From: Acidobacteriota bacterium
Lineage (GTDB): Bacteria; Acidobacteriota; Terriglobia; Acidiferrales; UBA7541
Length of the DNA stretch: 64,000 bases
Direction: 5' to 3'
Assembly: GCA_003223245.1 (NCBI GenBank)
Contig: QHYI01000106.1
Span: forward strand, 34,924 to 98,923
The translations under genes and the position numbers were made by a program. Positions 28,347 through 63,038 of the stretch are shown piece after piece. The notes beneath the pieces are model-generated. The model did not search any database. It saw only the letters and a program-made list of their open reading frames with translations, and had not been told where the DNA came from. Position 1 is the first letter of the stretch. Each line of letters starts with the position of its first letter.

Positions 28347-31300
28347 TTGCTTAAGCTGCGAAAAGTCGAAATCGTAGGCTTTAAGTCGTTTTGCGAACGC
28401 ACTCTGGTGACGTTCAGCGGGTCCGGGACCACGTGTATCGTCGGACCGAACGGCTGTGGCAAATCGAACGTGGTGGACGCGATTTCCTGGGTGCTGGGCG
28501 AGCAGAGCCACAAGTCTCTGCGCGCGGAACGCATGGCGGATTGCATCTTCAATGGAACAACAAAGCGCCCGCCGCTCGGCATGGCGGAAGTGACCATCAC
28601 GATGGAAGACCCGGAGCTGGCGGAAGCGGCGCGGTTCGTGTTGGAAGGCGCGGCAGCGGGAGAAAAGAAAGGTTTCACCACAGAGGGCCCAGAGAACACG
28701 GAAGAAGATGCCGCGACGTCAGCGGCGGCACCCGATGGGCCGCAGCTGGGCCAAGTTGCGGCCGGAGCGGATTCGCAGACAGAGAACGCGGAAGAGTCGG
28801 GCGGCAAATTCAAGAAACTATTCAAAAGAAAGAAAAAGAGCCAAGAAAAACCGACGCTTGCGACAAAGCCAGGCGAAATCATGGTCACGCGGAGGCTGTA
28901 TCGCTCGGGGCAGAGCGACTACCTCATCAACGGGCGCGTGGCACGGCTGCGCGACATTCAGGAAATGTTCATGGGCGTGGGGCTGGGACCGGATTCCTAC
29001 GCCATCATCGAACAGGGACGCATCGGGCTGATTCTTTCCACCAAACCGATGGAGCGGCGCGCGATCATCGAAGAAGCCGCGGGCGTAACGAAATTCAAAA
29101 CCAAAAAGCGACTGGCGGAAGCGAAGCTGGAGTCGTCGAAGGTGAACCTGGCCCGCGTGAACGACATCGTCGTTGAAGTAGAGAAGCAGCTCGGCTCGCT
29201 GAAGCGGCAGGCGGCGAAGGCGCGGCGGTATTCGGAGATTCGCGAGCAGATGCGCGGGATCGTGCGGCAGATGCTGGCGGGCAAAGCGCGGGAACTGGAT
29301 GCCGCAGCGGAAACAATCACGAAGCAACTGCAAGAATTGAACGCGGCAGAAACGCAGCGCGCAACCGCCATCCAGCAGATGGAGGGCGAACAGGACCGGC
29401 TGAATCAGCGGATTTACGAACTGGACGCGGAAATCCGGCAGAACCAAAACGTGCTAAACCTGACGGCGCTCGAAGTAGACCGCAGCGAGAACAAAATTGC
29501 GTTTAACCGCCAGCGCGCGCAGGAACTGGCCGGGCGTCACGCGCAGATGGATGCGGAACTGAAACAAGCGCGCGCGCAGGCCGCGGAGTGGGAGACGCGC
29601 AGCGCGACGCAGGTGCAGGCAGTGACGCTGCTGCGCGAAGAATCCGGCGCACTGAATGGGCGCGTCGAAGAACTTTTGCAGCGCGCGGAACAACGTGCGG
29701 CGCAGATTCGCGATAGCGAAGGGCGTATCGAGGCATTGCGGCAGCGGGCGTCGGAAGCGGGCGAAAGCCTGCTGCGGCTGCACGGCGAGCAAAAGCAATC
29801 GGAAGAAGCGCTGGTGCACCAAACCGAGGCGCTGCGGAAACTGGAGGCAAACGAACACGAAGTACTGGAAACCTCCATGCGGGCACGCAATGACGCGGAA
29901 CGCGCGGCTCATGAATTGGAAGCTGTTTCGGGGCAGCTCAGCGTGTTGAAGCAAAGCTCCGCGGAATTGCAGGCAAAAATCGGAGCGCTGCGCGGGCAGC
30001 GCGATGGCTTGACGAAAGAAGCGGACGCGCTGCGCGACTCGCTGGCGAGCGTGCGGGCGCGGCATTCGACGCTGACGCAGATTTTGAACGACCGGTCGTA
30101 TACGGCTGAGGCGGTGCAAAAACTCTTTGCTGCGAACGCGCGTGGCGGCGGGCAACAGTTCCGCGCCGTGGGTGTACTGGCCGACTACGCGGAAGTCGAA
30201 GAAAAGCATGAGGCCGCGATCGAGCAATTTCTGCGCGATGAGCTGGAATTTGTCGTCGTCGAAACTTTCGACCACGCACGCACGGGCATTTCCATGCTGC
30301 GCGATGAAGTGGGCGGCCGCGCGACGTTCTTCGTGGACTCCCTGCGCAACCTGCGGCTTGAAAATGAGTACGAACCGATTGCGAATTTCCAACCCGAAGA
30401 CGGCATAATCTCGCGGATGGACAAGCTGGTGGAATTCCGCGATCCGCTGGGAGCGGCGGCAAAGCAGTTTCTGCCACGGTTGCGTTCGGCATATTTGACC
30501 GACAGCGCGGCAGCAGCGGAAAAATTGGCCCGGGAGAATCCGCAGTACGCGTTCGTCACGCCGGACGGAACTAGTTATCAGGGGCGCATGGTGACCGGCG
30601 GACGTCCAGACGAGGCAGGGCCGCTAGGCATGAAGCGCGAATTGCGCGCGCTGAGTGCCGAGGTACTGCAACTCGAACACCAGATGAACGGGAAGCTGAC
30701 CGCGCTCGGAGAGGTAGCAGCAGAACTTCGCGCGACGGAACAGGCGCTGGAAGAAACCAGGGCGAAGCAGCGCGACGTGGAACGCGAAGTGATTTCCGCG
30801 CAGCACCGGCACAGCCAGATGCAGACGGAACTGGCACGGCTGGGAACCGAGTTGGTCCTTTGCCAGAGCGAGTTGGCGCGCGTCCGGAAAGAAGCAGAAG
30901 ACGCCTGGCAGCGCGCGGAACGCGCGAAGCACGAGCACGCCGCGGCCGCGCTCAATCGCGCGGAAGCGGAAGCCGAGAGCGCGCGGCTGGCGGAAGAACT
31001 GGTCGGACTGCGCGGTTCAGTGCAAACCGAGCAGCAGGAGTTAGCCACGGCGCGAGCCGGGCTGGCGGCGATTAACGAGCGACTGACGGCGGCAGAAGCT
31101 CTGGCGACGCGGCTTCGCGAAGAGCGCGCGGACATGGAACGCCGCGAGATGACGCTGCAGCAGCAAGTCATGTCCATTAGTGAAGAGACCGCGGCGCTCG
31201 CGAAGCAGAGCGAAGAATTGACGCAGCAACTCGAAGGTCTGCGCGCAGAAAAGCTGCGGCTGGAAGCGCGGCAGAAGGAACTGGAGCAAGAGTGGGAATC

Positions 31301-32207
31301 GGCGCGCACTCGCGTGACGCAAACCGAAGATCACCTTCGGATGGCGCGGCAAGAGCTGCAAGAGCTGCGCGAGCAGAAAAATCACGCCGAAGTGGAAGGC
31401 GCGAAGAACGAGTCGGACCGGGCGCATCTGCGCGAGACGTGCATGAGCGAAGTAAACGCGCAGCCGGAAGATTTGGTTGCCACGGAAACAGCGTTCATGA
31501 GCGGCGATGAACTTGCCGCAGCGGAAGCAAACTATCACGAAATGAAGCAGCGCATTGAGGGTATGGGCGCTGTAAACATGATGGCGCTTGAGGAGTTCAA
31601 CGAGTGCGAGCAGCGGTTCACCTTCCTAACGCGGGAGCGCGATGACTTGCTGAAATCGATTGCCGACACGCAGCAAGCCATCGTGGAATTGGACCAAGCC
31701 ACGAACGAGAAGTTCGAGCACGCGTTCCAAGCGATCAACAAGAGTTTCTCCGATGCCTTCCATGCGATTTTCGGCGGCGGCATGGCGGAGATGCGCTTGA
31801 CCGAGCCAGACAGTTCGGGCGATGCCGGCATCGACATTGTAGCCTCGCCTCCAGGAAAGCGGCTGCAAAACGTGCTTCTGCTTTCCGGCGGCGAGAAGGC
31901 CATGACGGCGCTGGCGCTGCTCATCGCGATTTTCCGCTACCAGCCGAGCCCGTTCTGCATCCTGGACGAAGTCGATGCCCCTCTGGACGAAGCGAATGTG
32001 GGCCGGTTCACGAAATTGATCGGGGAGATGAGCAGCCAGACGCAGTTCATTGTGGTCACACACAACCGCAAGACCATGGAAATCGCTCCCGTGCTTTACG
32101 GAGTAACGATGCAGGAGCCGGGCGTATCCAAGCTAGTCAGCGTGCGCTGGGAAGAAACCGGGAACGAAAATCCCGATACGAATGCATCGACCGCTTCCGC
32201 GGCGTAA
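28347..32207 (+). CDS. smc: Chromosome segregation ATPase SMC with unusual N-domain insertion
   Basis: 1286 residues from TTG 28347 (AAAGGGG upstream). The N-terminal ATPase part has Walker A GPNGCGKS (33-40); the C-terminal part has the signature LLSGGEKAMTALALL and Walker B FCILDEVDAPLDEANVGRF. Long coiled coils (about 260-560 and 750-1100) flank a hinge (about 585-745, FRAVGVLADYAEVEEKHEAA, ATFFVDSL). SMC dimers with ScpAB compact and segregate DNA. Unusual: about 85 residues (91-177) are inserted between EVTITMEDPE and the conserved IMVTRRLYRSGQSDYLING. The insert is Glu/Ala/Lys-rich with a basic KFKKLFKRKKK stretch, and its DNA contains a dispersed CACAGAGG-type repeat. The frame stays open and all motifs are intact, so the protein is probably functional. 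Confidence 0.96.
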   Translation: MLKLRKVEIVGFKSFCERTLVTFSGSGTTCIVGPNGCGKSNVVDAISWVLGEQSHKSLRAERMADCIFNGTTKRPPLGMAEVTITMEDPELAEAARFVLEGAAAGEKKGFTTEGPENTEEDAATSAAAPDGPQLGQVAAGADSQTENAEESGGKFKKLFKRKKKSQEKPTLATKPGEIMVTRRLYRSGQSDYLINGRVARLRDIQEMFMGVGLGPDSYAIIEQGRIGLILSTKPMERRAIIEEAAGVTKFKTKKRLAEAKLESSKVNLARVNDIVVEVEKQLGSLKRQAAKARRYSEIREQMRGIVRQMLAGKARELDAAAETITKQLQELNAAETQRATAIQQMEGEQDRLNQRIYELDAEIRQNQNVLNLTALEVDRSENKIAFNRQRAQELAGRHAQMDAELKQARAQAAEWETRSATQVQAVTLLREESGALNGRVEELLQRAEQRAAQIRDSEGRIEALRQRASEAGESLLRLHGEQKQSEEALVHQTEALRKLEANEHEVLETSMRARNDAERAAHELEAVSGQLSVLKQSSAELQAKIGALRGQRDGLTKEADALRDSLASVRARHSTLTQILNDRSYTAEAVQKLFAANARGGGQQFRAVGVLADYAEVEEKHEAAIEQFLRDELEFVVVETFDHARTGISMLRDEVGGRATFFVDSLRNLRLENEYEPIANFQPEDGIISRMDKLVEFRDPLGAAAKQFLPRLRSAYLTDSAAAAEKLARENPQYAFVTPDGTSYQGRMVTGGRPDEAGPLGMKRELRALSAEVLQLEHQMNGKLTALGEVAAELRATEQALEETRAKQRDVEREVISAQHRHSQMQTELARLGTELVLCQSELARVRKEAEDAWQRAERAKHEHAAAALNRAEAEAESARLAEELVGLRGSVQTEQQELATARAGLAAINERLTAAEALATRLREERADMERREMTLQQQVMSISEETAALAKQSEELTQQLEGLRAEKLRLEARQKELEQEWESARTRVTQTEDHLRMARQELQELREQKNHAEVEGAKNESDRAHLRETCMSEVNAQPEDLVATETAFMSGDELAAAEANYHEMKQRIEGMGAVNMMALEEFNECEQRFTFLTRERDDLLKSIADTQQAIVELDQATNEKFEHAFQAINKSFSDAFHAIFGGGMAEMRLTEPDSSGDAGIDIVASPPGKRLQNVLLLSGGEKAMTALALLIAIFRYQPSPFCILDEVDAPLDEANVGRFTKLIGEMSSQTQFIVVTHNRKTMEIAPVLYGVTMQEPGVSKLVSVRWEETGNENPDTNASTASAA
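28671..28708 (+). repeat. CACAGAGG-type dispersed repeat within smc
   Basis: The in-frame stretch containing CACCACAGAGG and AGAGAACACGGAAGA encodes FTTEGPENTEE and resembles the intergenic repeat at 22019-22060. It lies inside the SMC insertion. Confidence 0.5.
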
Positions 32208-42159: not shown

Positions 42160-43680
42160 ATGGATCGATTGCTCTCAGCTGCCGGGCAACTTTTTCGCGC
42201 CACGAAGAGACGGATCCTGGTCCTGGGATCGTTCTTTCTGCTGGCATCGTCAAACGCTTCCGCGCAAAAGGTTCCGCTCGACCAAACAGAGATTCTCGGC
42301 CGCCTGGCCGCCGGCAATACACCTAGCTACATCGCTCATCTCGTCAAAACCAGAGGAGTCGGTTTCTCAGTTTCCCAAGAGTTCCTTTACCGAGTAAAGC
42401 TCGCGGGTGGAGAGGGGATTCTTGCCGAACGACTCTTGTCGGCGGAACAATCCGGCCAGCCACAGTCGGTGTCCATGACGGAGGCGCGCTTCGATCGTTT
42501 GGCCAGGTGCGCTGAACTGCTGCACGTCGGCGCGACCGATTTGGCGCAGAAGGAGTGCCGGATCTCCATCGAGGAAAACCCTAACAGCCCGTGGCCCTTG
42601 CTAGCCACCGCCCGTCTCTTGCAACACTACGACCTGACTGGGAATTCCGTTGAAACCTCCGGAGAGAGCCCCGAAGAACGGAGAGAGCTTCTCCGGCGCG
42701 CTGCCGCGCTCGGACCTAATTTAGCAATGATTCACCAGGCACTCGCTATGACCCTCGATTCTGGCCAAGCTTCGGCGGAACTTGAAAACGCCAACAAGTT
42801 GGACGCGGAGCAATTGGAGCTTAGCGAAACAACCGCGTGGGAAATCCCGCGCGTTGGTTACGTTCGCGGGGAGGACGAGGATTCGGATCCGGCGGCCTCT
42901 TCTAACGAACTACCCGTGATTGACCCCGAAACCGCGCGTCATTTGGAGGTTGATCCTGACCTGGCCAGCAATCACCGCAGGTTGGCTCTCAGATATCTTC
43001 AAGTTGGCGATTTCGAAAAGGTGGAAAACGAATTTGCGGAAGCTATCCGGCTGGAGCCGGACAATCCTGCGATTCGGAGTGATCTGGCCGTTTACTACCT
43101 TTCCCGGCACAACCGGGAGCAAGCTCTGGCGGAACTCCGAGAGGGTGTTCGCATCATGCCTTTTGGGATCGTGCAGCGCATTTTTCTTGCGGAAACGCTC
43201 GAATCTTTTGGATACACGCGCGAGGCCGTTAACGAATTGCAGAATCTCACCTCCAGGTATCCTGCAGCCACGGCGGCAAGTGCATCCTTGGTGGAACTCT
43301 ATTTGGAACAGAAGAAGCCGCAAGCGGCGATCGAGGAGCTCCACCGTTCGCTTAAGGCGTCTTCCCTGATCTATAGGGATCAGGACAAGTTTGTGGAGGC
43401 GCGTTACACGGATTTGACCCGTTTGGCCCGTCTGCTGGAGGAAAGTCGCGAACTTGACGCGGCCGCCGAGCAGTATCTGTTCCTGCTGCGCTACGCGCCA
43501 GACTCTGCGGTGCTGCACAATGATTACGGAAACGTCTTGCTAGAGCAGCGCAAGCTGGACCAAGCGGTTGACGAATACAACGAAGCGATCCGCCTAGATC
43601 CCGGCCTTTCCAGTGCCCAGGACAATATCGGAACCTGTCTGGCTATGAAGAAGAACCTCGATACGTCGATTGCGCAATAA
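42160..43680 (+). CDS. Exported TPR-repeat protein
   Basis: 506 residues. A signal segment (about 19-36, ILVLGSFFLLASSNASAQ) is followed by many TPRs, clearest at ASNHRRLALRYLQVGDFEKV, AIRLEPDNPAIRSDLAVYYL and AVLHNDYGNVLLEQRKLDQAV. An acidic linker (GEDEDSDP) lies at about 230. It probably scaffolds partners in the periplasm. It heads, about 0.7 kb upstream, the same-strand group of copper and haem proteins, but a link is only positional. Confidence 0.85.
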   Translation: MDRLLSAAGQLFRATKRRILVLGSFFLLASSNASAQKVPLDQTEILGRLAAGNTPSYIAHLVKTRGVGFSVSQEFLYRVKLAGGEGILAERLLSAEQSGQPQSVSMTEARFDRLARCAELLHVGATDLAQKECRISIEENPNSPWPLLATARLLQHYDLTGNSVETSGESPEERRELLRRAAALGPNLAMIHQALAMTLDSGQASAELENANKLDAEQLELSETTAWEIPRVGYVRGEDEDSDPAASSNELPVIDPETARHLEVDPDLASNHRRLALRYLQVGDFEKVENEFAEAIRLEPDNPAIRSDLAVYYLSRHNREQALAELREGVRIMPFGIVQRIFLAETLESFGYTREAVNELQNLTSRYPAATAASASLVELYLEQKKPQAAIEELHRSLKASSLIYRDQDKFVEARYTDLTRLARLLEESRELDAAAEQYLFLLRYAPDSAVLHNDYGNVLLEQRKLDQAVDEYNEAIRLDPGLSSAQDNIGTCLAMKKNLDTSIAQ

Positions 43681-44388
43681 GATTCGGCCTTCAGCGAATG
43701 ACAGTTTGCTCTCAGTCAAAGACGGCAGCCGCCAGGTAAACTTCTGCAGTTACTTGTAAAGAGTTTGTAAATTCGTACTTTAGAGGCGACCCTCTTTGCG
43801 TTAGAGCATAGAGCCTTCTTCTCCAGCACCCCACACTGCCCCGCGTAGTTGTTCATTGTCTCTGGAGTGGATCGAGAACTTGCGCCGCAAGCTGACAGGC
43901 AAATGAACGACGCAGGCTTCTCTTCCCCACGGCCCGTTGAGGATTTGAACCTGGGAAGAATCGTGAACGTGGTTTGGGAATACTTGGAAGATTCCTAGTT
44001 CGTTAGAAAGTGATCCGGGGTGTAGTCGCTCTGCACCCCGGACCGGAAGCAGGCGCACTTTGCAGAGAGCGCTTACCTCAGCCTTCTCCTTTGAGGGATG
44101 GCACGTAGCTTTCTGCGCGCCATGGCACCCGACGAGGAGGGCTGGCAGTGATCATAACTCCCTTCAGTGTGAACCTGCGAGGCGACTTGTCTCAGCCGTA
44201 TACCCCGTCGCGTTCCACTTTTCTTCTCAGACGTGAAACTCATGGCCTTCCCATGCGCTATCGCGAGTTAGTTCCTGGGACTTATTGGACAAATCGAAAG
44301 CGCACCATCCGCCGTAGGGTTTTGGGATTTCTGCCCTTGCTTCGTATAGCTGGCCGCCGCCAAGGGGCGGGCGCGCCTTGGAGGTTCT
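43681..44388 (+). other. Intergenic region with strong hairpin
   Basis: About 700 bases without a supported gene. A 9-bp perfect stem TCCGGGGTG/CACCCCGGA with an 11-base loop lies at 44014-44042. No U-run follows on either strand, so it may be an RNA structure or protein site rather than a terminator. Short frames on both strands show no recognisable family. Confidence 0.35.
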
Positions 44389-44700
44389 ATGACCACAAAA
44401 GTGAGAAATCTATCGGTGATTTTGGCGGTTTTTGCCGTGCCCTGGGGAGTAGCCACCGTGAGATTGTCTGGCCGCGCAACTCGGCCTCATCAAGGAAAAA
44501 ACATTAGCGCGGGGCTGGAGACCGACGCCGCCTACCGTGACGGCATTTTCTTGGGCGAACTGGATGCTCGACAGGGGAGAAGCCCCAAGCCGAGCGTCGG
44601 CCGCTGGAATACCGAGAAGGACCGCGCTTCTTTCAAAGTTGGCTATGAAAAAGGCTACCGGGAGGCTCTGAAGTCGAAAAATTCCCAGCCCGGACGCTAG
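44389..44700 (+). CDS. Small exported protein of unknown function
   Basis: 103 residues from ATG 44389 with GGAGG four bases upstream, a strong start. There is an N-terminal hydrophobic segment (about 9-25). The rest carries two similar units, AAYRDGIFLGELDARQGRSP and DRASFKVGYEKGYREAL, each an (A/F)xxGxxxG(Y/E) helix. Such repeats resemble a small acidobacterial exported family that I cannot name. It is probably the first gene of the cupredoxin/cytochrome group (69 bases to the next start). Confidence 0.7.
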   Translation: MTTKVRNLSVILAVFAVPWGVATVRLSGRATRPHQGKNISAGLETDAAYRDGIFLGELDARQGRSPKPSVGRWNTEKDRASFKVGYEKGYREALKSKNSQPGR

Positions 44701-44769
44701 CACTGTCGACAAGGTTGAAAGAAACGATCCCAATTGTTTTCGGAAAAAATCTCAAAGGAGTCCCTCACC

Positions 44770-45525
44770 ATGAGAGTCAAAGCTTTACCTTTTTTCTTTG
44801 CCGCAACCGTTGCTCTATTCCTCGCGGGACGCGAACCGGCCCGCGGTCGTCCTCCAGCTAACGACAATCCCGCTCCGGGAACGGCAGTCGTAAAAGGCAC
44901 CGTGAAGTTCGTGGGCCAGCGGCCTACGTCGACGCATATAAGCATGAATGCAGATCCGAGTTGCGCCAAGCTCCATCCTGGCGGCGTGTCCGCGGAGGAT
45001 GTTTTGGCTGATCCCAACGGCGATTTGGAGAACGTCGTCGTTTTTGTCTCCGAAGGATTGGCGGATCGCGCCTTTGATCCCCCGTCCCAACCCGCCACCA
45101 TGGAGCAGAAAGGGTGCATGTACACGCCTCATGTCGTTGCTCTGCGTGCGAATCAGGAGCTGGACATTACGAATAACGATTCAACCACGCATAACTTGCA
45201 TCCCACTCCCGCCAACAATCGTGAATGGAACAAGGCGCAGGCTCCGGGTACGCGTTTGGACGCCACCTTTGCTCGCGAAGAGATCGCCATTCCCATGAAG
45301 TGCAATGTACATCCCTGGATGCGCAGTTATATCGCCGTCTTCAAGCACCCATTCTTTGCAGTCACGGACAAGGGTGGAACTTTCGAGCTGAAGAATCTCC
45401 CGCCGGGCAATTACACCATCGAGGCGTGGCACGAAAAACTTGGTACCTCCACGCAGAAACTCACCGTGGGCTCCGGCGACACCAAGGAATTGGATTTCGT
45501 CTTCAAGTCGCCCGCAGGCCATTGA
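44770..45525 (+). CDS. Exported cupredoxin-like copper protein
   Basis: 251 residues from ATG 44770 (AAAGGAG nine bases upstream). Signal peptide about 1-24. A cupredoxin-type fold has a likely type-I copper site: His141 (TTHNLHP), Cys178, His181 and Met184 in MKCNVHPWM. A C-terminal Cna-B/carboxypeptidase-regulatory-like element follows (GGTFELKNLPPGNYTIEAWHEKL). It resembles methylamine-utilisation-type or plastocyanin-like periplasmic proteins. It may pass electrons between haem proteins encoded downstream. The ligand spacing C-x2-H-x2-M is as expected for blue copper proteins; the redox partner is inferred. Confidence 0.82.
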   Translation: MRVKALPFFFAATVALFLAGREPARGRPPANDNPAPGTAVVKGTVKFVGQRPTSTHISMNADPSCAKLHPGGVSAEDVLADPNGDLENVVVFVSEGLADRAFDPPSQPATMEQKGCMYTPHVVALRANQELDITNNDSTTHNLHPTPANNREWNKAQAPGTRLDATFAREEIAIPMKCNVHPWMRSYIAVFKHPFFAVTDKGGTFELKNLPPGNYTIEAWHEKLGTSTQKLTVGSGDTKELDFVFKSPAGH

Positions 45526-45696
45526 GTCGCGCCATTGCGCCTTGTGTCCTTCGCTCTATTGGCAGAAACGGCAAACCGCAATACGGAATCATCGAAGCGG
45601 GCACGCAATCGGTTGAGACTTGATGAAAGTCTCAGCCGTTTTCGCGCCCTCTCGGTGTGTTGGAGAGTTGCAGTACGACATCTTCCAGGAGGCGCA

Positions 45697-47136
45697 ATGT
45701 TGCCTGGGTTTCTAGCATCGCTTAAGGGTCGTGTCTTGCGGCTTGCATCCTTCATTCTCGGTGGATTTCTAATTCTTTCTTTGTCGCTCCTTGACAATCC
45801 TTGCGCTTCCGCTTCGCTGATTCCAGCTGGCAAGCCGCACGCTATTCCGGCGTTCGCGCGAAAGTACAGTATGCCCTGCTCCTCCTGCCACGAGGCTTGG
45901 CCGAAGCTCAGCCCGTTTGGGCAGCAGTTTAAAGACAACGGCTATCAGATGGGCAATGAGCGCGACACCCCCATCTATCAGAGCCCTTCCTATTGACCGG
46001 TGACCTTCCGCATCACCCCGAACTGGCATCGCGAAGGCACAAACCGCGTCGCCGTAGACGGATCAACTCCCGGATCCACCGTGGAAGCTCAGGTCACTAC
46101 GCATGGATTCGACTGGAGCGGTTTGGATTTTCACACCGCGGGCACGTTAGCGAAGAATATTTCGTTTTATGTCCTGCCCTCCTCGGACAACACCGGCGCG
46201 TTTCACTTTGAAGCCGTATGGGGCCGCCTGGACAACTTGGCCGGCAGCCCCTGGCTCAACATCAAGCTCGGCAAGTTCGAGCTCGACAACCTGCACTCCG
46301 AGAAGCGCATTGTTACCCTGAGCAACTCCGGCGGCTTCTACCAGAACTATCATTTTCAGCCCCTGGTCTCTCCTGGCAGCGCAGCCAGTCCCGGGGCTGT
46401 GACCGAGTCGCTGTACGCCTTCGGGATTGGCGATAACCAAGTCGGTGTGGAATGGATGGGCCACTCCGCAAACGACCGCACCCGGGTTTCGGCTTCCCTG
46501 CTCAGTTCGAACGACGGCCAGCCGGGCTTGCCGACCAGCCGTGGGTATGATGGTTACTTTGCCGCAAGCCAGGCCTTCGAGATCGGCGACTTGGGACTGC
46601 AACGTGTGGGAGGATTCGCCTACCTCGGCCAGGTGCCCACTTTTCCCCAGTTCACACAGCAGGGCGTGGGAGTGCCGGGAACGGGGATTGGAAACAAGAG
46701 TTTTTATCGCGCAGGCGGAATCGGCATGTGGTACGTCAAGAAGCTCGATGTCACTACGATTTACTTTCACGGCTGGGACAACGCCTTCCTGGGATCGAAT
46801 ACGCCAGCGAACATGCCTCTCGCAGCCGGGGCGCAAGCGCCAACCTGGAACGGTGGCTTGGTCGAGACGCACTACAACTACAATCCTCAACTCATCCTAA
46901 TCCATCGCTACGAACTCATCCGCATGTCCCGCCAGGTGTTTGCAGCCAACCCGGGAAACTTCGGCGATATCGATGCCCTGACCGGCGGGTTTCGCTATTA
47001 CCCGTTCATTTCCAGCCGGGCAGGCTTCGCGTTTCACACCGAATACTCGGTAAGCCGGCAGCGAGGCGCTGCGCCTGTTAGCGGCCGCGACCTGACTTCC
47101 AGCAGCTTTTTCTTTGGCTTTGATTTTGCCTATTGA
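45697..47136 (+). pseudogene. c-haem/beta-barrel outer-membrane protein, interrupted by TGA
   Basis: ATG 45697 follows AGGAGG. The first 99 codons give a signal sequence (to about 40) and a CxxCH haem site (CSSCH, 61-65) in the context ARKYSMPCSSCHEAWPKLSPFG. TGA at 45994-45996 interrupts QSPSY-PVTFRITPNW. The frame then stays open to 47136 with amphipathic beta-strands and an aromatic end (SSFFFGFDFAY), as in outer-membrane barrels. The TGA replaces a likely Trp (TGG). A restart at GTG 46000 would lack the signal peptide and haem, so without readthrough the protein is lost. Intact, it would be a porin-like cytochrome suited to electron passage across the outer membrane. Confidence 0.7.
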
Positions 47137-47147
47137 GGTGGATGACA

Positions 47148-48818
47148 ATGCGCGTACGCAAAGCAAATAAGTTCGCCCTGGTGGTTGCCACCATGCTGGC
47201 GGTGGCTTGGTCCTCGCCGGCTCAGGAATCCCATATCGGCAAATGGACGGGGCATGCCAGCGCCGGGAAACAGCTTTACTATCGCTATTGCTGGGGTTGT
47301 CACGGGGTCCGCGGCGACGGCAACGGCGAGAACGCCCCTTACCTTAACGTTCTCCCCCGCAACTTTGTGGCGGGAACGTTTAAGTGTCGCTCGACGCCCA
47401 CCGGCACTCTGCCAACCGACGAGGATCTCTTCGAGGCTATCACGCGCGGCTTCTATAACACCTATATGCCGTCCTGGAAGGCGTTGACCAACCAGCAGCG
47501 CGCCGACCTGGTGGCCTTCATCAAGACCTTTTCGCCACGCTGGCAGAACGAAAAGCCGGGCACGCCCATCAGCATGCCGCCGGAACCGGCCTTGACGGTG
47601 GACAGCATCAAACACGGGAAAGAACTCTTCGCAAAAATGGAATGCTGGAAATGCCACGGCCAGGAAGGCCATGGGGACGGTCCTTCCGCCGCCACACTGA
47701 CCGACAACAACGATCAGCCGATCCGTCCTTACAACTTTTCCGAGGGTTCGCGCTTTAAGTGCGGCGAGACCAACCAGGACTTGTACAAAATCTTTATGAC
47801 GGGTTTGGATGGAACGCCCATGCCTTCCTTCGCCGATAACCTCAAGACGGAAGAGGCCTGGGACTTGGTGCACTTCCTCCGTACTTTACAAGTCCACCAT
47901 AACAGCCCGGAACTCGCTCTTTGGCGGAACACCGAGCAACCAGGGTTGAAGCCGACCAATCCTGGTACCTCCGGAGGCGCGCCTCCGGAGAAAGCAGAAA
48001 CTGTGTCTGCCCCACCCCCGCCCGGCGCATCTTCACCGGCCGCGCAAGGTGCGTCCGCTCCGAGCGCGTCTGACCCGGCGCCCGCCGCAGCGGGGAAAGC
48101 GGGGAAAGCGAGGGCGGGCGCCACGAATCCGGCCCCGGCACCGCCTGCTGCAGAGCCGCAGCCAGCCACAACCCCGGCCAGTGGGTCGGCGAAGACAAGT
48201 GCCGCAAATCCAGCCCCGGTCCAGCCTGTTGGGGAACCCAAGCCGGGCACAATCACATCTGGTGGAGGGGCGGAGTCGGCCAGCGCAAATCCGGTCTCGG
48301 CACAGGCCACGGTGTCACAGCCTCAACGTGAGTCACAGCCTTCTGGCAATGTCGGCACGATTAACAGAGATATGGATGATGTGGGGAGGGTGGTTAATCC
48401 GCCCCCGGATCCGAGGTCAACCGTGCCGAGAAGCGCGCTGTCGCGCACCTCGGCAACGGTTTACACCGCACCGGCCCTCGACAACCCGCGGCGCGTGGAA
48501 TTGCTCAATCTGGCGGTAACGGACGAAGCAGGAAAGATTTCTGTAATCATGACGCTGAGTGGCCCAGTTGTACCTCAACTAAAGTGGCTCGATTCGCCGG
48601 CCCGCGTTGTCGTGGATCTGCCCAAAACAGTTATGGCAACCTCCCAGCAGCGCATTGACGTCGGTAAGGGCGGCGCGAAAAGGGTGCGTCTGGGCATGGA
48701 CGCGCAGGTTCCGCCCACCACCCGTGTAGTTGTGGATCTGACCGAGCCGCTGGCTTACCAGATTGTCCCAGGCGGTGACAACACTTGGATTCTCGAGCTG
48801 CACCCGCAAAACAAATAA
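47148..48818 (+). CDS. Dihaem c-type cytochrome fused to an AMIN domain
   Basis: 556 residues from ATG 47148 (GAGGTGG six bases upstream, overlapping the previous stop). Signal about 1-27. Two cytochrome-c domains: CWGCH (48-52) and CWKCH (166-170), with distal Met candidates in YNTYMPSW and GTPMPSF. A Pro/Ala-rich linker (about 265-440) contains a 27-residue tandem repeat. The C-terminus (about 447-556, RRVELLNLAVTDEAGKIS, ARVVVDLPKTV, RVVVDLTEPLAYQI) is an AMIN domain, which in PilQ and amidases binds the cell wall. Cytochrome plus AMIN is an uncommon union; it would tether a soluble dihaem to peptidoglycan near the outer membrane. It is in an operon with the barrel gene. Confidence 0.88.
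   Translation: MRVRKANKFALVVATMLAVAWSSPAQESHIGKWTGHASAGKQLYYRYCWGCHGVRGDGNGENAPYLNVLPRNFVAGTFKCRSTPTGTLPTDEDLFEAITRGFYNTYMPSWKALTNQQRADLVAFIKTFSPRWQNEKPGTPISMPPEPALTVDSIKHGKELFAKMECWKCHGQEGHGDGPSAATLTDNNDQPIRPYNFSEGSRFKCGETNQDLYKIFMTGLDGTPMPSFADNLKTEEAWDLVHFLRTLQVHHNSPELALWRNTEQPGLKPTNPGTSGGAPPEKAETVSAPPPPGASSPAAQGASAPSASDPAPAAAGKAGKARAGATNPAPAPPAAEPQPATTPASGSAKTSAANPAPVQPVGEPKPGTITSGGGAESASANPVSAQATVSQPQRESQPSGNVGTINRDMDDVGRVVNPPPDPRSTVPRSALSRTSATVYTAPALDNPRRVELLNLAVTDEAGKISVIMTLSGPVVPQLKWLDSPARVVVDLPKTVMATSQQRIDVGKGGAKRVRLGMDAQVPPTTRVVVDLTEPLAYQIVPGGDNTWILELHPQNK
48126..48350 (+). repeat. 81-bp tandem repeat encoding the cytochrome linker
   Basis: Three imperfect units begin at 48126, 48207 and 48288, exactly 81 bases apart. 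Each starts AATCC(G/A)G and encodes NP(A/V)...-type Pro-rich 27-residue units. The third is shorter and more diverged. Confidence 0.75.
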
Positions 48819-48978
48819 CTGCCATCCAGTCCCGCCTTCCCGTCGCGATAGAGACAACAGCCTCGGGCAGTCATCGGCGACGCGGCAGAATGTTACCGAC
48901 GCCGACAGGTTCCGGCATCAAATAACAATTGGAAAGGTGGCTGACTCTCAGTGTCAAGAAAATCAGAAGTGTGTGCTC

Positions 48979-50043
48979 TCAATCTTTCGGCTGCATGCGA
49001 TTCAGGATTTCCTGTGCCACTTCGCGCACTTCCAGGGCACGTTGACTTGCAGGGCCGCTAGGGTCGAGTCGCAAATAAGTGTCGAGGTCCTGGATCTGCT
49101 CACGATAATCCTGCCGGCGCGAGCAGGAATCCGCAAGCACTAGGTAAGCGTTGGCCAGGTTGGGATCCCGCAGCAGAGCCTCCCGCGCGCTTTTTTCCGC
49201 CTCGTCCACCCGGTTCAAACGCAGGAGCGCCATGCCCAGGATGACATAACCATCCGGTGAATTCGGATCGATCTGCAATCCTCTCCGAATGTTGGTCTCC
49301 GCCGCACGGGCGTCTCCCTGCAAATAATAGATATACCCGATGCCAAACTGGGCCTTGGCGTACCGTCCGCCACTCACATTGATGGCCGCTTGAAAATTTT
49401 GCATCGCTTCCTGCCGGCGCCCTAGACTCGTCTCCGCTACGCCTAAATGATAGAGGGCTTCAAAGTATCCGGGAAACGCGCGGATAGCCTTCGTAAAGTG
49501 GCTCAAGCTCTGCACAAATTCCCTCTTTGCCAGGCTCATCAGCCCCTTCCGGTATTCCTCCTGGGCTTTGCCAGGAATCATGAGCTCCCTGACGGACACG
49601 GTATTAGCATCCGGCGAGGCAGGCGGAGGTGTAGAGGAGACTAGGTGCAGCTCCAGCTGAAGAGCGGCCCCGTCCAGCTGAGCAGTGGCATTCAAAGGCT
49701 GGTAACCCTGCTCTTCAACGACAATCTCGTAGAGACCACTGGGTAGACCCGGGACCTCAAAATGGCCATCATAATCGGTCAGCACGCTGCGAAAGATTCC
49801 CGAGTCGTGCGATTTCAAACCGACGGCTACCTGGCTCGCAGGCTGATTGTTGCTCAGCAAATACACCGTGCCGGAGATTATGCCTTCGCACTTTGCTAGG
49901 TCATGCTCTTGAGCGTTAGCCCGCGCCCCCAAGGAGAACAACGCAAAGCCCAGCAGAATCAGGGAAATTCTGCTGAATCGAAGAACCTGTAGAACCCTAG
50001 TTCTTGTAATTGCATCCAGAAAACGGAACCGTTTGCACTGCAT
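48979..50043 (-). CDS. Exported TPR protein with N-terminal Cna-B-like domain
   Basis: 354 residues. Signal/anchor segment about 25-44. A carboxypeptidase-regulatory/Cna-B-like domain spans about 54-135 (GIISGTVYLLSNNQPASQVAV, GHFEVPGLPSGLYEIVVEEQGY). TPRs follow (about 160-330: QSLSHFTKAIRAFPGYFEALYHLG, ADAAETNI-like ARAAETNIRRGLQIDPNSPDGY). It probably is a periplasmic or surface binding scaffold. It is convergent with the cytochrome-AMIN gene, so it may or may not belong to that cluster. Confidence 0.85.
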   Translation of the reverse strand: MQCKRFRFLDAITRTRVLQVLRFSRISLILLGFALFSLGARANAQEHDLAKCEGIISGTVYLLSNNQPASQVAVGLKSHDSGIFRSVLTDYDGHFEVPGLPSGLYEIVVEEQGYQPLNATAQLDGAALQLELHLVSSTPPPASPDANTVSVRELMIPGKAQEEYRKGLMSLAKREFVQSLSHFTKAIRAFPGYFEALYHLGVAETSLGRRQEAMQNFQAAINVSGGRYAKAQFGIGYIYYLQGDARAAETNIRRGLQIDPNSPDGYVILGMALLRLNRVDEAEKSAREALLRDPNLANAYLVLADSCSRRQDYREQIQDLDTYLRLDPSGPASQRALEVREVAQEILNRMQPKD

Positions 50044-60584: not shown

Positions 60585-63038
60585 TCATAAAAGGCTGAGG
60601 GGATCCATATCGACAAGGACGGCGGTTTGGGGAATTTCTTTGGCGTCGCAATAGGCTAATGCACGGCTGAGAAGTTTCGTCAGCACGGAGCGTTTGTGAG
60701 ATTTCAGCAGGAATTGGAAACGGTGCTCCTTTTTTAAGCGCGCCAGAGGCGCGGTTGCCGGGCCCAGTATGCGGACTTGCTCTCCGTCGTGCGGCGAAAA
60801 ATACTCAGAAAGCTGGTGAGACCAGCGAATCGTTCTTTCCAGGCTGGTGTCGCGCACAATCACGTTCGCGAGCGAAGTGAATGGCGGATAGGCCATTAGG
60901 CGGCGGAAGTGCAATTCGCGTTCAAAAAAGGAAGCGTAATCCTGCTTGACGGCGTCTTGAATCGCGTAGTGCTCGGGATAAAAAGTTTGGATGAGCACGC
61001 GGCCGGGAAGTTCGCCGCGTCCCGCGCGGCCGGCGACTTGCGTTAAGAGCTGAAAGGTTCGCTCGGCGGCGCGGAAATCGGGCAAGCTGAGCGAGGAATC
61101 GGCGCTGACGACGCCAACGAGCGTCACGCGTTGAAAATCGTGGCCCTTGGCAAGCATCTGCGTGCCGACGAGAATGTCCAGCGTGCCGCCGGCAAATGCT
61201 CCAAGAGTTTCCTGATATTGGTGCTTGGTGCGCGCGGTGTCGCGGTCCAGACGCGCGATGCGCGCGCCGGGAAATTCCTTGCGCAAGCGCTCTTCCAAAT
61301 GTTCCGAGCCTTCCCCGAAAAAATAAACGTATTGGGACTGGCATTTCGGGCAAAGTTTGGGGATGGTTTGAATCGAGCCGCAGTAGTGGCACTCAAGGCG
61401 GTTGCGCTGCTTGTGATGCGTCATGGAGATACTGCAATTGACGCATTGCACCGACGCGCCGCAACTGCGGCATAACACAGACCAGGAATACCCGCGGCGG
61501 TTGATGAGCACGAGCGCCTGCGTTCCATTCGAAAGACATTCTTGAATGCCCGCGTGCAATTTCGAGGAAATGGGGCTCGTCTGATGCGTTTGCTGGAATT
61601 CTTCCCGAAGGTCGACAATTTCCACGCCGGCGAGGGAGCGGTCGGCGACGCGGGAAGCCAGCGTCAATAATTCATATTTGCCGTTGCAAGCGTGGTGGTA
61701 GCTCTCCATCGACGGCGTGGCGGAGCCGAGCAGCGCCACGGCGTTTTCCATCTTCGCGCGCACGATGGCCACGTCCCGGCCATGATAGCGAGGCGTTTCC
61801 TCCTGTTTGTAGCTGGTTTCCTGCTCTTCGTCGACGATGATCAGGCCGACGTTTTCGAGCGGGGCGAAAATCGCGGAGCGCGTGCCCACCACGACGCGCG
61901 CTTCGCCGTTTCGAACGCGCCACCATTTGCCCGCGCGCTCCACGTCGCTCAGCGCAGAATGCAAAACCGCCACGCCTTCGAATCGCGCGCCAAACCACGA
62001 ACGGCATTGCCGGCCGATCCAGAGCGTTAAAGCGATTTCAGGCACGAGGACAATGGCAGTTTTTCCGCGCGCGAGCGTGTCTTGCACAGCGCGCAGGTAG
62101 ACTTCCGTTTTGCCGCTTCCAGTGACGCCATGAAGCAGCTGCACGCCGAAAGCACCCAATTCGAATCGTGCGCGGATGGCTTGCAATGCGCTCTCCTGTT
62201 CGGCATTCAGTTTGTGAGCCGGAGGCGTGTAGCCGGCGTCAAAGGGGTCCTCGGCAGGATCGAGTGGCTCCTCCCAGTTTTCCAGCAAGCCGTCGCGCAG
62301 CATGCGGTCGATCAAAGAGCGCGTAACATTCGCAAGCCCTAACAGCTGGGGCAAAGGAAGCGGGCCACGCTCCGTTTCCAGCAGCGTGCGAATTCGCTCC
62401 TCTTTTTCGGCCAGTGGTTTAGCGGATTCGCCAGAGGCGGGCGCCGCCTTCCACGCGATTACGCGCTGCGTTCTTCGCTTTTTCGATTGAATACTTTGGC
62501 GAATTTCGAGGAGACCGAGACGCTGGAGCTTGTGGAGCGAGGAAACATCGACGTCTAACTTCGCCTGAGATCTCCAGACAATTGCGCCCTTCTTTTCATT
62601 CAGCATCGCAAGAAATGCCACTTCCGGGGCCACTAAACCGTGAGATAGTTCGCCGCCACTCAAGCTTTCTGAGGCCTCGCGTCCAGCCTTGGTCAAGACG
62701 ATTTGCCGCTGTGATTTCAGCTCGGTGAGCGGAGGGAGCATGGCGCGAAGGACTTCGCCGATGGGGGCATGGTAATAGCTGGCAATCCAGTTTGCGAGTT
62801 CGATGAGCTTCGGCGGCAGGGCGGGAAGGAGATCGAGTACACGCGCGATTTCGCGAACTTTCGTGCCTTCCGGGGCGGTCTCAACGAATTCAACGACAAC
62901 GCCAACGAGCGACTTCTTGCGAAAAGGGACAAGCACGCGGCTCCCTAGTTGCACCGTTCCCCGCATGGGCTCCGGCACCACGTAGGTGAAGGTCGAGCAC
63001 AATGGGACCGGCAAGGCTACGTTGCAGAGGGAATTCAT
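60585..63038 (-). CDS. priA: Primosomal helicase PriA (replication restart)
   Basis: 817 residues. The N-terminal DNA-binding domain starts VALPVPLCSTFTYVVPE. The DEAH-type helicase has Walker A GVTGSGKT (304-311) and Walker B IIVDEEQETSYKQE. Two zinc-binding clusters follow, CRSCGASVQCVNCSI and CHYCGSIQTIPKLCPKC. Helicase motifs V/VI include DILVGTQMLAKGHDF and QVAGRAGRGELPG. It reloads the replisome at stalled forks. Length is slightly longer than E. coli PriA, owing to the 110-260 region. It is convergent with the tricorn gene. Confidence 0.95.
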   Translation of the reverse strand: MNSLCNVALPVPLCSTFTYVVPEPMRGTVQLGSRVLVPFRKKSLVGVVVEFVETAPEGTKVREIARVLDLLPALPPKLIELANWIASYYHAPIGEVLRAMLPPLTELKSQRQIVLTKAGREASESLSGGELSHGLVAPEVAFLAMLNEKKGAIVWRSQAKLDVDVSSLHKLQRLGLLEIRQSIQSKKRRTQRVIAWKAAPASGESAKPLAEKEERIRTLLETERGPLPLPQLLGLANVTRSLIDRMLRDGLLENWEEPLDPAEDPFDAGYTPPAHKLNAEQESALQAIRARFELGAFGVQLLHGVTGSGKTEVYLRAVQDTLARGKTAIVLVPEIALTLWIGRQCRSWFGARFEGVAVLHSALSDVERAGKWWRVRNGEARVVVGTRSAIFAPLENVGLIIVDEEQETSYKQEETPRYHGRDVAIVRAKMENAVALLGSATPSMESYHHACNGKYELLTLASRVADRSLAGVEIVDLREEFQQTHQTSPISSKLHAGIQECLSNGTQALVLINRRGYSWSVLCRSCGASVQCVNCSISMTHHKQRNRLECHYCGSIQTIPKLCPKCQSQYVYFFGEGSEHLEERLRKEFPGARIARLDRDTARTKHQYQETLGAFAGGTLDILVGTQMLAKGHDFQRVTLVGVVSADSSLSLPDFRAAERTFQLLTQVAGRAGRGELPGRVLIQTFYPEHYAIQDAVKQDYASFFERELHFRRLMAYPPFTSLANVIVRDTSLERTIRWSHQLSEYFSPHDGEQVRILGPATAPLARLKKEHRFQFLLKSHKRSVLTKLLSRALAYCDAKEIPQTAVLVDMDPLSLL

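Follow-up and report, generated by a model that had tools for sequence, protein, structure and literature searches.

How might an uncultured acidobacterium move electrons across its outer membrane? The question is raised by a gene cluster in a 64,000-nucleotide stretch of DNA, hereafter the window, which comprises bases 34924–98923 of contig QHYI01000106.1 (C75) in an Acidobacteriota assembly (GCA_003223245.1; 6.31 Mb, 237 contigs, 95.8% complete). A sequence-only reading of the window had proposed an envelope-spanning electron path, encoded by a set of genes that it did not recognize. Our analysis narrows this set to three adjacent genes, whose products are a copper protein, a Cyc2-like outer-membrane barrel, and a diheme cytochrome c. 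These genes recur together in relatives, where they often precede genes for a cytochrome oxidase. On balance, the trio probably constitutes an electron-intake path of the Cyc2/rus type that carries electrons inward. The core genes and the sites within them are as follows.

44770–45525, plus strand: cupredoxin (ligand alignment, model, and VIA-align; Pfam CarboxypepD_reg)
45190–45192, 45301–45303, and 45319–45321, plus strand: codons of copper ligands His141, Cys178, and Met184 (alignment)
45697–47136, plus strand: Cyc2-like fused monoheme cytochrome-porin (motif, model, and profile match of the heme head)
45841–45909, plus strand: Cyc2 signature, made up of AIPAFARKY (45841–45867), heme site CSSCH (45877–45891), and PKL (45901–45909)
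45994–45996, plus strand: in-frame TGA in the barrel gene, where all 32 aligned relatives have tryptophan (20) or phenylalanine (12)
47148–48818, plus strand: diheme cytochrome c with AMIN (Pfam, alignment A4, PDB 6h5l_B)
47289–47303 and 47643–47657, plus strand: heme sites CWGCH and CWKCH of the diheme cytochrome
About 48516–48782, plus strand: C-terminal AMIN domain (Pfam)

A Cyc2-like barrel and two electron carriers

Open reading frames were taken from a simple longest-open-frame script, with no gene finder. Two sets of relatives were compared. The first consists of 40 fetched loci, of which 32 carry the window's barrel type (L034–L065) and eight a second type. The second is made up of 80 named loci out of 91 confirmed, mostly acidobacterial with some from Gemmatimonadetes or Chloroflexi bins. 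Bins bearing titles such as Acidobacteria (gp2, gp13, and gp1 isolates), Candidatus Acidiferrum typicum, and Terriglobia give the closest named matches. The 32 loci overlap with the 80 (e.g., L036/L074), so the counts are not independent.

The ATG at 45697, which is preceded by a good ribosome-binding site, was chosen as the start of the barrel gene. Its product has 479 residues only when the in-frame TGA is read through. The head of this protein is AIPAFARKY-SMP-CSSCH-EAW-PKL, which corresponds to the published Cyc2 consensus of AXPXFAR[Q/K][T/Y], CXXCH, and PXL. The first of these motifs is called unique to Cyc2 (PMC8406198). The full motif occurs once across the six reading frames of the window. 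It is present in 32 of 33 aligned barrels, in all 33 when shortened to P.FAR[QK][TY]...C..CH, and in its strict form in 67 of the 80 named loci. Each barrel of the 40 fetched relatives has a single CXXCH. The 33 aligned barrels are 462–502 residues long, exceeding the Cyc2 minimum of 365, which the window copy reaches only with the TGA read through.

The predicted structure points in the same direction. An AlphaFold model from 33 sequences, with a predicted local distance difference test score (pLDDT) of 73.7 and a predicted template modeling score of 0.72, resembles the porins PorB (7de8; Z 25.2, root-mean-square deviation [rmsd] 3.1 over 304 residues), OprP (2o4v; Z 23.0, rmsd 3.3 over 316 residues), and OprO (4rjw; Z 22.8, rmsd 3.3 over 315 residues). 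Of these, OprO and OprP have been named for Cyc2 (PMC8406198), and PorB for Cyc572 of Leptospirillum (PMC10654088). DSSP divides the model into 19 strand pieces of at least three residues, some broken or short, and the exact count of 16 that defines Cyc2 barrels is not claimed. By its motif, length, and predicted porin fold, the product is classed as a Cyc2-like fused cytochrome-porin, a kind of protein already recognized. The proposal of a heme-bearing outer-membrane barrel is supported by both motif and model.

Profile comparison joins the heads of these barrels to those of six Cyc2-like plasmid proteins, none functionally proven, over 59 columns (98.3%, E 1.5e-14). A tblastn match to Methylocystis was also observed (E 1e-6), and the second barrel type in the window's family aligns with the first over its full length (E 4.6e-36). 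The barrel profile has no match up to E 1 among PDB sequences, Pfam yields none for the 33 barrels up to E 0.01, and NCBIfam yields none for the six Cyc2-like proteins. Those six are encoded on plasmids of Methylocystis, Acidithiobacillus, Caballeronia, Paraburkholderia, Ideonella, and Polymorphobacter (L154–L159). In five of them a gene for a c-type cytochrome is the next gene, or the next annotated gene, downstream; in Paraburkholderia it lies upstream.

The call of a blue-copper-like protein is likewise upheld, despite the fact that Pfam assigns no cupredoxin domain to 44770–45525 and finds only CarboxypepD_reg. His141, Cys178, His181, and Met184 are invariant in all 30 aligned homologs (alignment A3, which omits L034, L036, and L063, where no cupredoxin was found). 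The Cys-x2-His-x2-Met spacing is that of amicyanin, to which the protein has a weak sequence match (E 0.02). In the model (pLDDT 80.4), Foldseek gives no match below E 0.001. Reexamination of the Foldseek matches by VIA-align gives a clearer result: Residues 107–191 match purple cupredoxin 5fc9 (Z 10.4, rmsd 1.9 over 81), plastocyanin 1bxu (Z 9.9, rmsd 2.3 over 83), and amicyanins (Z 9.0–9.4). These ligands and this predicted fold are those of a type-1 copper protein. Because the two flanks jointly match transthyretin-like domains, such as that of duck carboxypeptidase D (1qmu; Z 11.2, rmsd 2.0 over 81), the cupredoxin appears to be inserted in a transthyretin-like, or carboxypeptidase-regulatory, domain.

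Pfam identifies two cytochrome c domains and AMIN in the third product, with a Pro/Ala-rich linker between. Both CXXCH sites and two Met residues (107 and 225) are invariant in 31 aligned cytochromes. This alignment (A4) omits L056, an open frame without the first heme, and the L055 cytochrome gene (L055:7875-8753; G057), in which a TGA stands in frame where glycine is otherwise conserved. The whole diheme region matches PDB 6h5l chain B, a "conserved hypothetical cytochrome protein," with an E of 4.3e-70. This chain, from Kuenenia, is not known to carry AMIN and has a different partner. The NCBIfam match to cytochrome 579 is weak (42.6 bits versus a cut-off of 280) and is a hint at most.

AMIN and SPOR domains act at the cell wall. 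The AMIN domain probably holds the cytochrome of the window copy there, as the sequence-only reading had suggested. However, tblastn at E up to 1e-3 detects this domain in none of the loci of 120 relatives, 107 of which have the cytochrome. The only tails longer than about 155 residues past the last heme carry SPOR, in L056 and L059 (contigs that recur as L110 and L129). The carrier may thus have been tethered on two separate occasions, in one lineage by AMIN and in another by SPOR. Wall tethering was rejected as a family trait, since AMIN was found in the window copy alone and SPOR in one lineage of relatives.

Conserved linkage and the oxidase genes

Linkage counts include only those named loci whose contigs leave room (75, 68, or 56 of the 80), with distance limits set by the analyst. 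The diheme cytochrome gene adjoins the barrel gene in 72 of 75 such loci, and the cupredoxin gene is adjacent in 65 of 68 (62 downstream and three upstream). L108, which has two genes between barrel and cytochrome, was scored as lacking both neighbors. Similarly, the cytochrome adjoins the barrel in all 32 fetched relatives with the window's barrel type, and a cupredoxin is found in 29. Of the other three, L036 and L063 reach contig ends, and L034 has none in 19.5 kb. Synteny in relatives, which the sequence-only reading had named as a test of its path, thus holds for the trio. Its other concern, that the barrel gene might always be broken, is not borne out: The frame is open in all 40 fetched relatives, including the eight of the second type, and in 74 of the 80 named loci, with three more cut by contig ends and three broken (L138, L146, and L152). 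Because the full motif occurs once in the window and the linkage recurs in dozens of loci, the unit is beyond chance.

Genes coxB and coxA lie downstream in 40 of the 56 named loci with at least 6 kb, a count that includes L108 with its two extra genes. Pfam recognizes the oxidase genes as COX2, COX1, COX3, and COX4_pro. In L035, CoxB shows CTQLCGLGHYNM, a complete CuA site, and CoxA shows GHPEVY and the His pair. The order in relatives is barrel, diheme cytochrome, cupredoxin, coxB, coxA, coxC, and coxD. The rus operon of Acidithiobacillus ferrooxidans has a corresponding order and like kinds of part, namely, cyc2, cyc1, cup, coxB, coxA, coxC, coxD, and rus (PMC2754497). In A. ferrooxidans, a diheme cytochrome c4 reduces AcoP, the cup product, and AcoP copurifies with the oxidase (PMC5982212). 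A run on one strand of cyc2, a diheme cytochrome gene, a cupredoxin gene, and coxBA is found in the same 40 of 56 named loci. In its arrangement the operon of the relatives is of the rus type, but its carriers are different ones.

There are also differences from the rus operon. The window copy begins with the cupredoxin, followed by barrel and cytochrome (the order also found in L039 and L041), and consists of the trio only. No oxidase gene lies beside it, and its contig has no COX1 match. The cupredoxin sits within a transthyretin-like domain, and some of the cytochromes bear AMIN or SPOR tails. After coxD, no rusticyanin-like gene was recognized in the loci examined, where no rusticyanin query or profile was used.

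Other known systems are less similar. The barrel shares the AXPXFAR[Q/K][T/Y]-CXXCH-PXL head, a length above 365, and the porin fold with Cyc2 of Mariprofundus and Acidithiobacillus, whereas its barrel part has diverged and the head alone aligns by profile. Cyc572 of Leptospirillum is, by description, also a cytochrome-porin with PorB as nearest solved fold, and acidobacterial homologs of it have been noted in a similarity network; unlike the genes described here, its genes are reported to be unclustered and its oxidase to be of the cbb3 type (PMC10654088). In the MtrAB, MtoAB, and PioAB conduits an outer-membrane barrel likewise serves electron transfer, but there a separate decaheme cytochrome is held in a 26-strand barrel, whereas here one heme is fused to it. 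We rejected an Mtr-type conduit, since each of 40 barrels has one fused CXXCH and the unit's other cytochrome is only diheme. A conduit unlike any known was rejected as well: The barrel has the published Cyc2 motif, and the trio of many relatives precedes an oxidase as in the rus operon, so the set is not the unrecognized one it had seemed.

The envelope-spanning path had included more genes than these. A route across the outer membrane is well supported for the copper protein, barrel, and diheme cytochrome, but the TPR gene and the small gene are not in the conserved unit. The neighbors of the trio are as follows.

42160–43680, plus strand: TPR protein (repeats confirmed by Pfam), a local neighbor outside the conserved unit
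44389–44700, plus strand: small gene of 103 amino acids, a local neighbor outside the conserved unit
48979–50043, minus strand: carboxypeptidase-regulatory and TPR protein (Pfam), outside the unit

All five plus-strand genes are present, as proposed, but the gene at 48979–50043 lies on the opposite strand, and the proposed range (42160–50043) is therefore not same-strand throughout. The TPR gene occurs with the trio in two of the 32 relatives of this type only (L039 and L041, which have the whole neighborhood in common), some contigs being short. The small gene adjoins the trio only in the same two; it is also found in L054, several kilobases away on the other strand. Both genes were rejected as members of the path because they accompany the trio in two of 32 relatives. 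Up to E 0.1, neither Pfam nor NCBIfam recognizes the small gene. Elsewhere in the window are ordinary genes, including those for an SMC protein (28347–32207) and the primosomal helicase PriA (60585–63038).

The barrel type is carried by 36 of 89 genomes of the window's family at E 1e-40 or better, a few of the copies being partial at contig ends. It is rare in the phylum as a whole (seven of 247 genomes at E 1e-30). Eight loci with this type are in contigs titled Gemmatimonadetes or Chloroflexi (L123, L124, L128, L140, L141, L142, L144, and L149), and most carry oxidase genes where the contig permits. Because these titles and their guanine-plus-cytosine content (0.62–0.68 versus 0.55–0.60 in seven acidobacterial loci measured) differ from those of the acidobacterial loci, there is a hint that the barrel type has spread between phyla. 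In a separate observation, among the 69 named loci with room, 42 have two genes of ∼300 and ∼440 codons divergently upstream of the barrel (L035:10575-12895 and similar); neither gene has a firm Pfam family.

In all eight loci of the second Cyc2-like barrel, the head of which is AIPAFSRKY, a cupredoxin (CNVHPEM) comes next; these loci include L069:8675-18799 (G030) and L066:722-10811 on contig C143 of the window's own genome. Downstream from the cupredoxin in L069 are an iron–sulfur flavoprotein, a Rieske protein, cytochrome b pieces, a multiheme cytochrome c, and a cytochrome c. The C-terminal cytochrome b match is slightly below the Pfam cut-off. In L069, the second barrel is perhaps joined to a bc-type complex as an "uphill" arm.

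Direction of flow, donor, and state of the window copy

From the genes, their motifs and modeled folds, the conserved linkage, and the presence in many relatives of oxidase genes next to the trio, we infer a donor, a direction, an order of transfer, a location for each part, and a use of the wall tether. The single N-terminal heme of the barrel, at the periplasmic mouth of the pore, would accept an electron whose most likely source is Fe(II). The periplasmic diheme cytochrome c would receive this electron and pass it to the type-1 copper protein. The copper protein would in turn feed a CuA-type cytochrome oxidase that reduces O2. An inward direction is likely because the trio precedes an oxidase in rus order in many relatives and because the barrel carries the Cyc2 motif. 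All Cyc2 proteins that have been functionally characterized oxidize Fe(II) (PMC8406198).

Several observations weigh against this scheme. The barrel gene of the window is interrupted by a TGA, and the oxidase is absent from 16 of the 56 named loci with room, to which the window is a similar case. The strict Cyc2 motif is missing from 13 of the 80 named loci, the heme head of the barrel model has low confidence, and the barrel part yields no profile alignment to proteobacterial Cyc2-like proteins. The periplasmic carriers of the relatives differ from those of A. ferrooxidans, whose Cyc1 (1h1o) is absent among the 18 PDB matches listed for the cytochrome. Finally, RuBisCO is found in one of 36 genomes of the genus. 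Because of this last count, from a search that covered RuBisCO only, there is no sign of Calvin-cycle autotrophy, and the path may be an extra energy source for organotrophs.

The window copy raises a question of its own. With no adjacent oxidase and an in-frame TGA in the barrel gene, it is possibly an impaired copy, unless the TGA stems from faulty assembly. That it is decaying, the barrel gene a pseudogene and the trio a remnant, is quite possible, and would be compatible with any function in relatives. Besides the TGA and the contig without a COX1 match, scrambled pieces of cupredoxin, coxB, cytochrome, c5, and c2 on C78 of the same genome (L173, 3138 bases) are consistent with decay. So are the three broken copies among the 80 named loci and, in the 89-genome search, a copy split with a TAA in G016; G018 has two fragments of ∼60 residues. 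In contrast, the rest of the window's barrel frame is open and both neighbors are intact, and the syntenic copies in L039 and L041 are open. Another coxA on C93 (L172:5812-7559) is also split between two frames, which makes sequence error possible; the C78 pieces and this split gene may reflect decay or assembly error. The genome also has an open barrel and cytochrome pair on C87.

The window barrel may have a history distinct from that of its neighbors. In FastTree phylogenies it groups with L035–L038, L040, L042, and L044 (support 1.0), whereas the trees of the other two proteins place the window sequence with L039 and L041 (support 0.97 for the cytochrome and 0.996 for the cupredoxin). Because the barrel tree conflicts with the other two, the data suggest that the barrel gene was exchanged within the unit in one lineage.

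For the relatives, the question becomes which donor feeds the path and in which direction it runs. An inward path fed by Mn(II), an organic reductant, or a reduced soil mineral instead of Fe(II) is unlikely. Sequence does not fix the donor, and Cyc2 has been discussed for a Mn(II)-oxidizing lineage of Nitrospirota (PMC9040806), but the uniform specificity of characterized Cyc2 proteins for Fe(II) noted above argues against this choice. Slightly less probable again is outward flow, in which periplasmic electrons exit by the barrel heme and reduce Fe(III) oxides, humics, or other acceptors outside the cell. A diheme cytochrome and a one-heme barrel are reversible in principle, and the loci without an oxidase, as well as the window, would be consistent with such an exit. 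However, 40 of 56 loci have the oxidase immediately downstream, and a lone heme at the mouth of a closed pore is less suited to a solid acceptor than to a small soluble donor, as has been argued for Cyc2 (PMC8406198). Cupredoxin-like proteins can deliver copper to oxidases, and in relatives the copper protein is encoded closest to coxB, but a role for the unit in assembly or protection (copper delivery, or heme or oxygen sensing) rather than in respiration of an outside donor is very improbable, since it leaves the conserved heme site of the barrel and the diheme carrier unexplained.

A possible rus-like operon in uncultured Acidobacteria

Inward flow from Fe(II) to O2 can be placed in a wider picture, which we advance tentatively. 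Uncultured Acidobacteria might carry a rus-like operon that encodes the complete chain for this reaction in a single run and whose carriers are unlike those of Acidithiobacillus, with a diheme cytochrome of the 6h5l_B kind and a cupredoxin in a transthyretin-like domain. Such an operon would have been assembled independently or have diverged beyond recognition. Some lineages would fix the carrier to the wall by AMIN or SPOR, and the second barrel operon would feed a Rieske/cytochrome b complex, so that these organisms, most of them without RuBisCO, would have one intake for the downhill route and another for the uphill. A description of the operon was not found in the open-access literature searched, a scope outside which subscription papers and preprints fall, and it may be in print elsewhere.

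If this picture is true, then aerobic Fe(II) oxidation becomes a testable trait of a group of uncultured, mostly soil and peat Acidobacteria. The barrel, diheme cytochrome, cupredoxin, and coxBA together would make a compact marker that separates probable respiratory use of Cyc2-like proteins from lone Cyc2 hits. A second rus plan, differently built, would also let one ask which parts are essential.

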